Source: a virus. Taken from it: a stretch of 22,327 nt of DNA. The notes under the pieces were generated by a model that saw only the letters and a list, made by a program, of their open reading frames with translations, was not told the origin of the DNA and did not search any database. Within the stretch, counting starts at the first letter, position 1. Each line of letters opens with the position of its first letter. Both the position numbers and the translations under genes were made by a program. Below, piece after piece: positions 3,856 through 11,732 of this stretch. The stretch spans positions 1-22,327 of the IMG/VR virus record IMGVR_UViG_3300042429_000087. The stretch is one strand, 5' to 3'.

Positions 3856-4284
3856 ATGCTAAACAGAAAGAAGGATATATCAATAAGACAATTAAAGGAG
3901 TTATACTTCGCACAACGTAACACCCATTTGCAACTTCACGAAATGATGCAGCAGTTAGGGTTGTTAGGCATAGAAGATAATGAGCCTTTAGGGTTAGACA
4001 TTGGTGCGAGAACTATTGTCAAATTGGTAGACGAAGAGTTTGAGTGCGATGTATTAATTAAGGATAGGAGTTTAAAAACTACGTTCGGTCGCAAGGCTGC
4101 TGCTTACTTACTCAGGAGGTACACTAAGTTAAGCCTTAAGGAGATAAGCCAATACACAGGAACAAGCGACCATACAACGGCTATCCATAACATAAAACAA
4201 GCGAATAACCTAATAGAAACTGAGGACTGGTTTAAGACAAAACTAAAAAAACTTTGTTTAAAATTAGAACTTAAAGAAATTTAG
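3856..4284 (+). CDS. DnaA domain IV-like DNA-binding protein
   Basis: This is a 142-residue protein whose C-terminal half matches the DNA-binding domain of the DnaA initiator. It reads FGRKAAAYLLRRYTKLSLKEIS at about 77-98, then TGTSDHTTAIHNIK at 101-114, corresponding to the DnaA signature around DHTTV. There is no AAA+ ATPase domain; the N-terminal 60 residues are helical and unassigned. It could bind DnaA-box-like sites in the phage or host origin, as an initiation helper or competitor. It sits just upstream of the presumed replication initiator gene and candidate origin. The domain call is strong; the role is inferred. Confidence 0.75.
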   Translation: MLNRKKDISIRQLKELYFAQRNTHLQLHEMMQQLGLLGIEDNEPLGLDIGARTIVKLVDEEFECDVLIKDRSLKTTFGRKAAAYLLRRYTKLSLKEISQYTGTSDHTTAIHNIKQANNLIETEDWFKTKLKKLCLKLELKEI

Positions 4285-4286
4285 TG

Positions 4287-4294
4287 TATATTTG
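4287..4294 (+). promoter_or_regulatory. promoter -7 element (TATATTTG)
   Basis: A perfect TAnnTTTG element lies three bases after the DnaA-like gene stop. A clear TTTG -33 partner at the right distance is not visible, so strength is uncertain. The start would be near 4300-4303, immediately before the structured RNA region. Confidence 0.5.
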
Positions 4295-4300
4295 CAGTAT

Positions 4301-4395
4301 AATAAGACACATAGACGAACTGCGAACCGCCTATGTGTTTAGTGGTTAAATATAATAACCCTGGTAGTTCGCAGCTATCGGGGTTTATTTTTTTT
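4301..4395 (+). ncRNA. candidate structured RNA (small RNA or attenuator leader)
   Basis: Two hairpins follow the -7 element. Hairpin 1 pairs ACACATAG (4307-4314) with CTATGTGT (4331-4338) around a 16-base loop. Hairpin 2 pairs AACCCTGGTAG (4357-4367) with CTATCGGGGTT (4375-4385) around the loop TTCGCAG. The loop of hairpin 1 contains CTGCGAAC (4320-4327), the exact complement of GTTCGCAG (4367-4374) in hairpin 2. The RNA could therefore form a kissing complex or switch to an alternative fold. It ends in a U-rich tract. It may be a free-standing sRNA or the regulated leader of the gene at 4396. Confidence 0.5.
4357..4395 (+). terminator. intrinsic terminator / attenuator before the replication gene
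   Basis: An 11-pair stem (4357-4367 with 4375-4385, two G-U pairs, seven-base loop) is followed by TTTATTTTTTTT (4384-4395). This is a good rho-independent terminator. The ATG of the next gene begins at 4396, so reading into that gene from the upstream promoter would require read-through or anti-termination. Confidence 0.65.
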
Positions 4396-5130
4396 ATGGC
4401 AAAAGACCCAGCATTTTTATTTTACCCAGGCGACTATGTTAGTGGCACAATGGGAATGACATTTGAAGAAAAAGGAGCATATATGGACTTACTTATGCTT
4501 CAATTCAATCGTGGTCATATGAATACTCATATGATACAACATACGATAGGACACTTGTGGGAACAAGTGAAATCCAAATTTATACAAGATGACGAAGGTT
4601 TATGGTACAATGTAAGGCTTGATTATGAAAAAGAAAAGCGTAAAACCTTTACAGAATCAAGGAGAAACAATATGAAACCTAAAAACAAACCTAAAGAAAA
4701 TGTATCATATGAAACGCATATGCAACCTCATATGATAGCTCATATGGAAAATGTAAATGAAAATACAAATAAAGATATAATTAATAATAAAAGTAAATGT
4801 AGTTTTGAGCAAGTTTACGAATATATGGCTAATAAAATTAATTTAGATTTAGCTAAAATAGAAGCGGAAAAGTTCGTAAATTACTACGAAAGTAACGGGT
4901 GGAAAGTAGGCAAGAACCCTATGAAAAGTTGGTCAGCAGCAGCAAATAATTGGATAACTAACACTAAACAATATGCAAAAGGAACTACAAACAATAAGCC
5001 AAAACTTAATAAACACGAACTCGACAACCTTAGAAACTACAACTATATCCACTCTACTTCCTATGGAGAAGGAGATTATGAAAAGCTTTTCGGGGGAGAG
5101 GGTACGCAATCTGAATACTACAATATTTAA
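4396..5130 (+). CDS. DUF1376-type phage replication initiation protein
   Basis: The 244-residue product starts MAKDPAFLFYPGDYVSG and continues TFEEKGAYMDLLML, the DUF1376 signature seen in phage replication/helicase-loading proteins. The C-terminal part has FVNYYESNGWKVG, then MKSWSAAANNWI, typical of the replisome-organizer C-terminus. Between them lies a low-complexity His-Met and Asn-rich linker (about residues 95-135 of the product). The start at 4396 is chosen because the domain begins there; 21 more codons are open upstream to 4333 but fall in the RNA hairpins. The linker DNA holds the candidate origin. Domain recognition is good; the biochemical step is not proven. Confidence 0.75.
   Translation: MAKDPAFLFYPGDYVSGTMGMTFEEKGAYMDLLMLQFNRGHMNTHMIQHTIGHLWEQVKSKFIQDDEGLWYNVRLDYEKEKRKTFTESRRNNMKPKNKPKENVSYETHMQPHMIAHMENVNENTNKDIINNKSKCSFEQVYEYMANKINLDLAKIEAEKFVNYYESNGWKVGKNPMKSWSAAANNWITNTKQYAKGTTNNKPKLNKHELDNLRNYNYIHSTSYGEGDYEKLFGGEGTQSEYYNI
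4516..4800. other. candidate replication origin (CATATG iterons plus AT-rich stretch)
   Basis: CATATG occurs six times: at 4516, 4528, 4706, 4717, 4729 and 4741. Spacings are 12, then 11, 12 and 12 bases within the two groups, close to one helical turn. Bases 4747-4800, right after the last copy, are about 87% A+T (7 G/C in 54), as expected of an unwinding element. The arrangement inside the initiator gene resembles lambda ori within gene O. The alternative is that it merely encodes a His-Met-rich linker. Confidence 0.45.
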
Positions 5131-5731
5131 ACAAAACCTTGTTTATTTAATGCAACTTGTAGGCATAAACAATCCTGGCGAAGTTAAGTTAGCAATTTTA
5201 GAAGATTGGATAAGAACCGAGTATGGTGGCTTTACAATAAACGAGGTTAAAGTAGCGTTTAAGCAAATGGTAGCCAATGACTTTATAGATCACTACCAGA
5301 ACTTTAGTCCTGCATACTTTAGTCAGGTTATGGACAGGTACAAGAAAAAAGCAAACGAAGTAAGAAAAATGATGCCACAGGAACGAGTAGAAGCAATACC
5401 TCACTTAAGCGATTTAGAAATAATTGATTACAGTTATCAAGAATACAAAATTTTGGAAAATAAAACATTTGATAGATTGTTTAATCCATTAAGTGTATTT
5501 ACAAAGCTTAATAGCACAGGCATCAAGGTATGGACAAAAGAAGATGGCGCACTTGCTAAAAAGAAATTAATGGAGATTATTACCTACAAAGCTAATAAAA
5601 TGGATATCATAAGCGCAAAGCAGTACCGAGACGAGTGGACTGAACAATGGCTAAAGAACCAGGCTCGAGCCGTAGCCGTAGCTTTATTTTTTGATTTGCA
5701 AATTAAAAATGGTAAAGTTTCATTTTCTTAA
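5078..5731 (+). CDS. hypothetical protein, probably replication-associated
   Basis: This protein is 217 residues from the ATG at 5078; an ATG at 5063 is the alternative start, and both lie inside the previous gene. It contains a helical module EVKLAILEDWIRTEYGGFT, then EVKVAFKQMVANDF and FSPAYFSQVMDRYKKK. That pattern is shared by proteins commonly encoded after phage initiators in Bacteroidetes phages. The C-terminal half is helical with a YRDEWTEQWLK segment. No catalytic motif or Walker box is seen. A helicase-loader or replisome partner role is inferred only from its place after the DUF1376 gene. Confidence 0.6.
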   Translation: MKSFSGERVRNLNTTIFKQNLVYLMQLVGINNPGEVKLAILEDWIRTEYGGFTINEVKVAFKQMVANDFIDHYQNFSPAYFSQVMDRYKKKANEVRKMMPQERVEAIPHLSDLEIIDYSYQEYKILENKTFDRLFNPLSVFTKLNSTGIKVWTKEDGALAKKKLMEIITYKANKMDIISAKQYRDEWTEQWLKNQARAVAVALFFDLQIKNGKVSFS

Positions 5732-9944: not shown

Positions 9945-10162
9945 GAAAGTTAAACGCTATATGGCTACTCTTGACACATAAGGCTTACTTCCTTGCGGTA
10001 TGTAAGACGGGTAAAAACGGAGACGATATGACAACGATAGGACACTACACCTATGCAATGGCAGAAACTTTAATTAACAAACATATAGCAGACGTAGATA
10101 CTTACCTTGACCAAGAAGATGCAATAGACGAAGCAAACGATATAATTAACGGCATACTATGA
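9941..10162 (+). CDS. hypothetical protein (73 aa)
   Basis: This 73-residue protein has a partly hydrophobic N-terminus (MRKLNAIWLLLTHKAYFLAV) and a helical acidic C-terminus (TYLDQEDAIDEANDIINGIL). The N-terminal segment is interrupted by charged residues and is more likely an amphipathic helix than a membrane span. Both ends overlap neighbouring genes by 4 bases. I do not recognise the family. Confidence 0.55.
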   Translation: MRKLNAIWLLLTHKAYFLAVCKTGKNGDDMTTIGHYTYAMAETLINKHIADVDTYLDQEDAIDEANDIINGIL

Positions 10163-10674
10163 TACAAAACGTACCAATCAACACAGTTAAAGCAAACCCT
10201 AACAATCCCAGAATAATCAAAGACGATAAGTTTGCAAAACTTGTAAAGTCAATAAACGAGTTTCCTGAAATGCTTAAGCTTAGACCTATCGTAGTTAATG
10301 ACGATATGGTTGTTCTTGGTGGCAATATGAGATTAAAGGCTTGTAAAGAAGCGGGACTTAAAGAGATACCTATTATCAAAGCAAGTGAACTAACCGAGCA
10401 GCAGCAAAAGGAATTTATAGTTAAAGACAACGTAGGCTATGGCGAATGGGATTGGAACGATTTAGCGAATAATTGGGATAGTGAGCAACTAATAGATTGG
10501 GGTTTAGACATACCTGGTTTTAAAATAGAAGAAGAAAAGGAAATGGAAGATTTATCTGACAAATTAAAATCAGAATTTAAGATTGAAATTATTTGCAGAG
10601 ACGAAGCAGAACAAGAGCAAACATATAATAAACTTATAGAACAAAACTACGAATGCCGACTTTTAACATTGTAA
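10159..10674 (+). CDS. ParB/Srx-like nuclease domain protein
   Basis: This 171-residue protein has an N-terminal ParB-like domain: VPINTVKANPNNPR at 5-18, then LRPIVVNDDMVVLGGNMRLKAC at 41-62 in the ParB nuclease order (GGNMR carries the conserved arginine, R58), then EAGLKEIPIIKA. The acidic C-terminal region (WDWNDLANNWDSEQLIDWG) is the same type found in phage ParB-like proteins fused or adjacent to DNA methylases. Here the neighbour is instead an ABC-ATPase/GNAT fusion, with which it overlaps by 22 bases. DNA or nucleotide hydrolysis is expected from the family; the partner role is inferred. Confidence 0.8.
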   Translation: MIQNVPINTVKANPNNPRIIKDDKFAKLVKSINEFPEMLKLRPIVVNDDMVVLGGNMRLKACKEAGLKEIPIIKASELTEQQQKEFIVKDNVGYGEWDWNDLANNWDSEQLIDWGLDIPGFKIEEEKEMEDLSDKLKSEFKIEIICRDEAEQEQTYNKLIEQNYECRLLTL

Positions 10675-11732
10675 AAACAGCCGAACCTAAAAAAACTTTT
10701 AGGGTATCTTCCGTAATGGGTAAGTTTGATTTGGAAAGCAATCAAATTAAAGAACATTTTGAAGGTAACATAGACATTAAAGATAATTGGCAAATAGGTT
10801 TAATAGTTGGCAAAAGCGGTAGCGGTAAAACTACAATAGCAAAACAATTATTTCCTGACTCTTATATAACCAATTTTGAATATAATGCAGAAACTATTTT
10901 AGACGATATGCCTAAAGAATGCTCAGTTGAAGATATAACAAAAGCATTTAATTCTGTTGGCTTTAGTTCCCCACCTTCTTGGTTAAAGCCATATTCCGTT
11001 CTATCAAATGGAGAAAAAATGAGGGTAGACCTTGCCCGTGCTATTTTATCAGAAGATAATTTATTTGTATTTGATGAATTTACAAGCGTAGTAGATAGAA
11101 ACGTAGCACAAATTGGCTCATTTGCAATGCAAAAAGCAATTAGAAAAACATCAAAACAATTCATAGCAGTTACTTGCCATTATGATGTTGAGGATTGGCT
11201 ATTGCCAGATTGGGTATTTGATACAGACACTATGACCTTTCGTAACTGCGAAGGGCAAAAAAAAAATAGACCAGAAATTAAATTCGAGATATTCCAAACA
11301 GACGATAAGTCAGTCTGGAAAATGTTTGCTAAGCATCATTATTTAAGCCATAGTCATAATAATGCAGCAAAGGTATTTTTGGCTTATGTTAATAATCAAT
11401 TAGCAGGTTTTATATCAGTATTTCATTTTCCTCACCCAAAAGTAAAAAACTTTAAAACTGTTCATAGATTAGTTATATTACCTGATTATCAAGGACTTGG
11501 AATAGGAGTTATGTTTTTAAATGAAATTGGTAAAATATATAAAAGTGAAAAATGGAGATTTACAATTATAACATCAGCTCCAAGTTTAATGTTTGCCTTA
11601 AAAAAATCTAAATTATGGGCTTTAAAACAATTTGGAAGGAAGCCTCCTCAAAATATAAATACAGGTAATCCAATTAGTACAAGAAAATCAGATAGCTCTA
11701 ATAGATTAACAACAAGTTGGGAAATGATATAA
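10653..11732 (+). CDS. ABC-type ATPase fused to GNAT acetyltransferase (COG2401-like)
   Basis: This is a 359-residue two-domain protein. The ABC domain (about 45-200) has Walker A GKSGSGKTT (53-61), signature LSNGEKMRVDLARA (117-130), Walker B LFVFDE (137-142) and the H-loop H176. There are no membrane spans, so it is not a transporter. The GNAT domain (about 210-330) has KHHYLS (227-232), FISVFHFPHPK and motif A RLVILPDYQGLGIG (272-285). The architecture matches the ABC-ATPase/acetyltransferase fusions of COG2401. A modification role, possibly on DNA as for the GNAT-like Mom of phage Mu, is inference. An A10 run lies at the domain junction. The DNA is AT-rich relative to the terminase genes. 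Confidence 0.82.
   Translation: MPTFNIVKTAEPKKTFRVSSVMGKFDLESNQIKEHFEGNIDIKDNWQIGLIVGKSGSGKTTIAKQLFPDSYITNFEYNAETILDDMPKECSVEDITKAFNSVGFSSPPSWLKPYSVLSNGEKMRVDLARAILSEDNLFVFDEFTSVVDRNVAQIGSFAMQKAIRKTSKQFIAVTCHYDVEDWLLPDWVFDTDTMTFRNCEGQKKNRPEIKFEIFQTDDKSVWKMFAKHHYLSHSHNNAAKVFLAYVNNQLAGFISVFHFPHPKVKNFKTVHRLVILPDYQGLGIGVMFLNEIGKIYKSEKWRFTIITSAPSLMFALKKSKLWALKQFGRKPPQNINTGNPISTRKSDSSNRLTTSWEMI

Follow-up and report, generated by a model that had tools for sequence, protein, structure and literature searches.

To our knowledge, phage replication origins are known only from a few models. In this study, we analysed a stretch of viral DNA of 22,327 nucleotides (positions 1 to 22,327 of IMG/VR record IMGVR_UViG_3300042429_000087; hereafter, the window), in which a probable replication initiator gene contains two groups of CATATG hexamers. 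The question raised by this locus is whether the gene carries its own replication origin, as a preliminary description of the DNA had proposed, or whether the repeats are kept for another reason.

Repeats and A+T-rich stretch in the initiator gene

A motif search of the window confirmed the six CATATG copies described previously (iterons 1, 2, and 4 to 7 in Table 1), their spacing of 12 bp in the first group and of 11, 12, and 12 bp in the second, and the A+T content of the 54 bases that follow the last copy. The preliminary description had placed the repeats in the linker of the protein; this holds for the second group, but the first lies in the sequence encoding the N-terminal domain. The CATACG at 4540 extends the first group by another step, and this first array (4516-4545) is 160 bp from the linker array. 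Five of the six CATATG copies are read as CAT-ATG codons (His-Met), and the copy at 4706 is out of frame (TCA-TAT-GAA).

Outside the initiator gene, CATATG occurs only twice in the window (1649 and 13036), and the total of eight copies is ordinary (shuffle mean, 5.8). The clustering is unusual, as six copies of any palindromic hexamer within 240 nt were reached in 3 of 300 whole-window Markov simulations. When synonymous codons of the gene were permuted, six CATATG copies were reached in 337 of 20,000 permutations; this single-sequence result is modest and too weak to decide alone, and it is the conservation among relatives that settles the matter. The A+T content of 4747-4800 is attained at four places in the window. 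At the counterpart of this stretch, relatives of all subtypes have an A-rich coding sequence for a peptide rich in Glu and Asn.

Table 1. Features of the initiator locus, with repeats at the corresponding gene regions of related phages (window positions unless a relative is named)
Feature	Position	Strand	Remarks
DnaA domain-IV-like DNA-binding protein gene	3856..4284	+	Pfam Bac_DnaA_C, E=1.9e-11
TATATTTG, possible Bacteroidota-type -7 promoter element for the initiator leader	4287..4294	+	putative function
Leader hairpin 1	4307..4338	+	loop bases 4320-4326 pair with 4368-4374
Leader hairpin 2	4357..4395	+	T-run reaching the start codon, terminator-like; kissing partner of hairpin 1
Probable replication initiator gene	4396..5130	+	DUF1376-like N-terminal domain, aa 1-95; linker, about aa 96-132; exchangeable C-terminal domain
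Iteron 1, CATATG	4516..4521	+	first array; gene nt 121 in 71/71 unique relatives with the same N-terminal domain
Iteron 2, CATATG	4528..4533	+	gene nt 133 in 71/71 unique relatives
Degenerate iteron 3, CATACG	4540..4545	+	12 bp past iteron 2; unchanged in 50/50 close relatives
Iteron 4, CATATG	4706..4711	+	out of frame (S-Y-E); hexamer invariant though residues vary (SYE/PYE/TYE)
Iteron 5, CATATG	4717..4722	+	invariant in relatives
Iteron 6, CATATG	4729..4734	+	invariant in relatives
Iteron 7, CATATG	4741..4746	+	invariant in relatives
A+T-rich stretch, candidate DNA unwinding element	4747..4800		abuts the last iteron; 87% A+T
Overlapping downstream gene	4973..5731	+	start uncertain, probably after 5060; no Pfam match
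Type B repeat CATTAGGTT	L218, gene nt 138, 149, then 314, 326, 338
Repeat CCACGGCA	L222 and L224, 161, then 326, 338, 350; L472, 153, 164, then 317, 329, 341
Repeat GGCAATGCC	L227, L475
Repeat TTAACCCAA	linker of L491
Repeat AGGTCATATG	L319

The encoded protein

The window protein matched Pfam DUF1376 (PF07120) with E=8.6e-6 and 26.5 bits. Considering that this score is under the curated cut-off of 30.1, we call the protein DUF1376-like rather than a member of the family. Among the aligned relatives, 29 of 35 matched DUF1376 (E<0.01), and the window protein also matched PHROG entries annotated as 'primosomal protein' (E=7e-8 and 2e-7). The N-terminal domain was modelled with a pLDDT of 88 as three helices, a short beta hairpin, and a long helix. 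In a fold search, this model gave weak matches, the best being a MarR-type regulator (E 0.38), together with ORC winged-helix and DnaD N-terminal domains. Judging from the model, the N-terminal domain is probably winged-helix-like and DNA-binding. The full-length model had a pTM of 0.36, at which a fold search is meaningless, and a PDB sequence search with the window protein gave no match. A protein search of a phage database returned partial matches only, mostly to the C-terminal part, from Vibrio phages and faecal phage records.

Conservation of the sites as DNA

An IMG/VR scan for relatives of the initiator found 521, of which 80 were kept, and all kept relatives having the same N-terminal domain carry the array. 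When only the N-terminal domain was used as the query, a second scan reached further, to members whose C-terminal halves differ, and a genome scan yielded two relatives, in Neomarinimicrobiota and Bacteroidetes bins. In the 71 unique relatives, the two sites of the first array are always accompanied by 2 to 5 sites in the linker. The intervals between sites were 12 bp in 218 cases and 11 bp in 49; the others were the gaps between the two arrays (162-192 bp) and a single interval of 36 bp. Alignment of relatives at the DNA level had been set beforehand as a test of the proposal, and in 71 of 71 the His-Met residues were kept without loss of CATATG, of the codons, or of the 11/12-bp spacing.

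The His-Met codons in five of the six copies, and the single codon available for Met, would also suit a repeat kept for the protein, in which HM-x-x-HM serves, for example, metal binding and CATATG merely follows from the codons. The codon usage speaks against this explanation. On the one hand, His codons in the arrays of the 71 unique relatives are CAT in 345 cases and CAC in none; on the other hand, elsewhere in these genes His is encoded by CAT in 146 cases and by CAC in 156 (Fisher p=5e-65, indicative only, as the sequences are related). In 50 close relatives, 0 of 36 columns are variable in the sites vs 19 of 23 in the spacers. The out-of-frame copy encodes SYE, PYE, or TYE and yet stays CATATG, which argues for selection on the DNA and rules out a metal-binding HM motif. 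Many relatives have a further out-of-frame CATATG 12 bp before the counterpart of 4706, which is also unchanged. Other N-terminal subtypes, described below, have unrelated peptides but the same two-place layout in the DNA. We therefore regard a protein-level repeat as scarcely credible; as judged from the alignments, selection is acting on the DNA of the arrays.

In the records of 12 relatives (28-34.5 kb), the pattern CATATG-N5/6-CATATG was confined to the two arrays of the initiator gene. In more distant relatives (L318, L299, and L314), the site is longer and forms an extended palindrome, AGGTCATATGACCT, a hint that the binding protein acts as a dimer.

Exchange of the N-terminal domain together with the repeats

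CATATG is missing where the C-terminal half of the initiator is shared at 76-89% identity and the DUF1376-like N-terminal domain is a different one. The N-terminal domains of the window and L057, for instance, are 48% identical and the C-terminal halves 89%, and the CATATG copies number six vs none. The same pattern of exchange was found with other C-terminal halves, between L297 and L208 and between L313 and L218. Other N-terminal subtypes have different repeats at the same two regions of the gene, often 11-12 bp apart (Table 1), and some of these are also read in two frames inside one gene, through 11-bp steps. The type B repeats are less clear-cut than those of type A: 30 close sequences retain TTAGGTT at gene nt 140 and 151, and 7 of them have lost the linker copy (nt 316). 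We also applied a motif-free test, in which the longest word common to both regions was compared with synonymous permutations in 33 clusters. Twelve of the 33 were individually significant, and the combined Fisher p of 2e-13 is indicative, as the clusters are related.

These comparisons argue that related phages swap the probable DNA-binding half of the protein together with the matching set of sites. Because the subtypes carry their own DNA repeats at the same two regions, the low-complexity linkers of these proteins (HMxxHM, ATASTTAYATA, NPTLNPTL, and KPNGKPNG) are best read as translated iterons. In L216 (3001-3978), a type-B-like initiator, the linker holds an HNH-endonuclease-like stretch (CxxC...CRQCNSSK) where other relatives have iterons; it may be a homing-type insertion.

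Considering that module exchange is frequent among the relatives, with junctions near the linker, the arrays could be recombination hot spots kept because they promote the exchange of N- and C-terminal modules. However, no junction falls at the array that lies in the binding-domain sequence, and invariance at each base exceeds what homology would need. Type A and type B phages have no array sequence in common, so that homology at their junction cannot come from the array. Recombination hot spots are thus a very improbable explanation.

Leader RNA upstream of the start codon

A conserved leader RNA, at 4296-4398, has two hairpins with mutually complementary loops (Table 1). In 25 distinct sequences, the loop-loop (kissing) helix was 100% paired, with five of its seven pairs doubly compensated, and slid controls were only 33-41% paired; in the stem of hairpin 1, two pairs were doubly compensated. 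Hairpin 2 has G-U pairs on the + strand, which indicates an RNA of this strand. This arrangement recurs in distant relatives with different loop sequences, for example GTCGGAT/ATCCGAC (L208 and L298), GTAGGAT/ATCCTAC (L300), and GTACGAG/CTCGTAC (L303). Rfam gave no match to the leader in the window or near the leader in the loci of eight relatives; one tRNA was found elsewhere. Just upstream, close relatives retain TATATTTG or TATATTCG at the counterpart of 4287-4294, which we take to resemble the Bacteroidota-type -7 promoter consensus. The leader may act as a transcription attenuator or a translation gate of initiator expression.

The leader points to tight regulation of the initiator gene and so bears on the main rival to an origin, namely that the arrays are only an autoregulatory operator, by which the protein blocks transcription of its own gene while replication starts elsewhere. 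An operator would account equally well for conserved sites inherited together with the binding domain, and a repression loop could form between two arrays 160 bp apart. However, the usual place of operators is at promoters, whereas the sites here lie 120-350 bp inside the gene. Repression does not need an A+T-rich stretch abutting the last site, and no other CATATG pair was present in any of the 12 records. We consider an operator without origin function to be unlikely.

Neighbouring genes and other origin markers

The gene upstream encodes a DnaA domain-IV-like protein, and the preliminary description had counted it in favour of an origin. The gene is real (Table 1) but adds little, because DnaA-box-like 9-mers are at chance level: TTATCCACA with up to two mismatches was found 89 times vs 81, with no cluster at the array. 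A DnaA-dependent (oriC-like) origin was rejected, as a cluster of DnaA boxes was not found. GC skew was monotonic, with no sign change, in the window and in the records of four relatives (33.5-34.5 kb); it is uninformative as an origin marker because all genes there point one way.

The downstream gene has the position that a DnaB or DnaC-like protein occupies in other relatives (we also compared it with Rac ydaV). In L472, L231, L226, and L320, a DnaB helicase gene is the next gene, overlapping or adjoining. The window also encodes an ERF annealing protein and a DNA polymerase exonuclease (Pfam and PHROG). At 10653-11732, an ABC-type ATPase part is joined to a GNAT acetyltransferase part (Pfam ABC_tran, 1e-9; Acetyltransf_1, 2e-7), and a ParB-like ORF, recognised by eye at 10159-10674, adjoins this gene.

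Comparison with known origins

In lambda and Stx phages, the origin consists of iterons in the middle of gene O with an A+T-rich tract directly after them (PMC7466680). The lambda iteron is an inverted repeat, and four or six iterons occur, their copy number varying and adding residues to the linker (PMC7466680). The parallel to lambda ori drawn in the preliminary description was borne out, in that the window also appears to have iterons and an adjoining A+T-rich tract inside the initiator gene. CATATG is likewise palindromic, and the copies in the linker vary from 2 to 5 and lengthen it. The sites of the window differ from those of lambda in being very short, with a 6-bp core every 11-12 bp, and in forming a second array inside the binding-domain sequence. 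The host lineage also differs, being apparently Bacteroidota here, and a homologue of P was not identified in the window.

In SPP1, oriL consists of direct repeats and an A+T-rich region in gene 38, which encodes the origin-binding protein, and genes for a helicase loader and a DnaB-type helicase adjoin (PMC6316719). Repeats and an A+T-rich region inside the initiator gene are common to both, but the protein family differs. SPP1 has a second origin, oriR, elsewhere, whereas no second paired array was present in the 12 records searched here.

The Rac prophage of E. coli K-12 has an active origin, oriJ (PMC3945230). Its ydaU is DUF1376 by annotation and thus of the same Pfam family, and the next gene, ydaV, is annotated as a putative ATP-binding protein. 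We found that ydaU (L347:5120-5977) has TGTTCAAACA in the linker twice in direct and once in inverted orientation, and a copy GATGTTCAA in the N-terminal part. These repeats are more widely spaced than those of the window, at 33 and about 23 bp, and there is little divergence from which to judge selection on the DNA. It is possible that they are the site of oriJ; a literature search did not find the location of oriJ relative to ydaU. In the E. coli ydaU alleles L416 and L421, the linker is followed by an inserted segment, which lengthens the joined match by about 340 bp and encodes a stretch like TDRNGVRCGIELDRNSPRQKSLLKIGAV.

Discussion

The gene at 4396-5130 combines a short repeated sequence inside an initiator gene, conservation of this sequence as DNA, and an A+T-rich region beside it. 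A helicase or loader gene next door was found in relatives, and the downstream gene of the window gave no match. The proposal of an intragenic origin is supported by the conservation of the sites and their restriction to the initiator gene, by the absence of CATATG where the N-terminal domain has been exchanged, and by the DnaB neighbour in relatives. We consider it quite probable that this gene codes for a replication initiator and that the origin lies within it, bound there by the encoded protein, in the manner of lambda O and SPP1 gene 38.

If so, the DUF1376-like N-terminal domain, probably a winged helix, would bind the CATATG sites, and the core origin would be the linker array (4706-4746) with the adjoining A+T-rich stretch. 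Initiators assembled on the array would strain the duplex, and the A+T-rich stretch would open. The C-terminal half would then recruit the replicative helicase or a helicase loader. The first array may be a second binding platform, which serves looping or lets the gene limit itself. Binding, melting, helicase loading, and origin activity itself are what we infer from the arrangement.

Origins within initiator genes are already known. Our literature search, which covered few subscription journals, found no paper linking DUF1376 or DUF1376-like proteins with a replication origin, and such an origin for DUF1376-like proteins therefore appears to be new. A wider proposal, which we hold to be evenly balanced, is that these proteins are a widespread family of phage initiators, in Bacteroidota phages and possibly as far as the Rac prophage, in which the linker is essentially a translated origin. 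An iteron of its own would mark each N-terminal subtype, present both in the linker and in the sequence for the binding domain, so that this domain and the origin would be exchanged as a single module, and a kissing-loop leader RNA with a terminator would gate expression.

In summary, the origin of this phage would be predictable from its sequence, and the rule that the iteron type follows the N-terminal subtype would extend the prediction to hundreds of related phages. The natural exchanges of domains offer material for reading the recognition code, and in E. coli K-12 ydaU and oriJ allow the idea to be tested directly. The conserved leader RNA provides a second, independent route to how such phages limit initiation. 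If true, our reading would assign a role to a protein family still lacking one, and would explain why its linkers are so unusually low in complexity.
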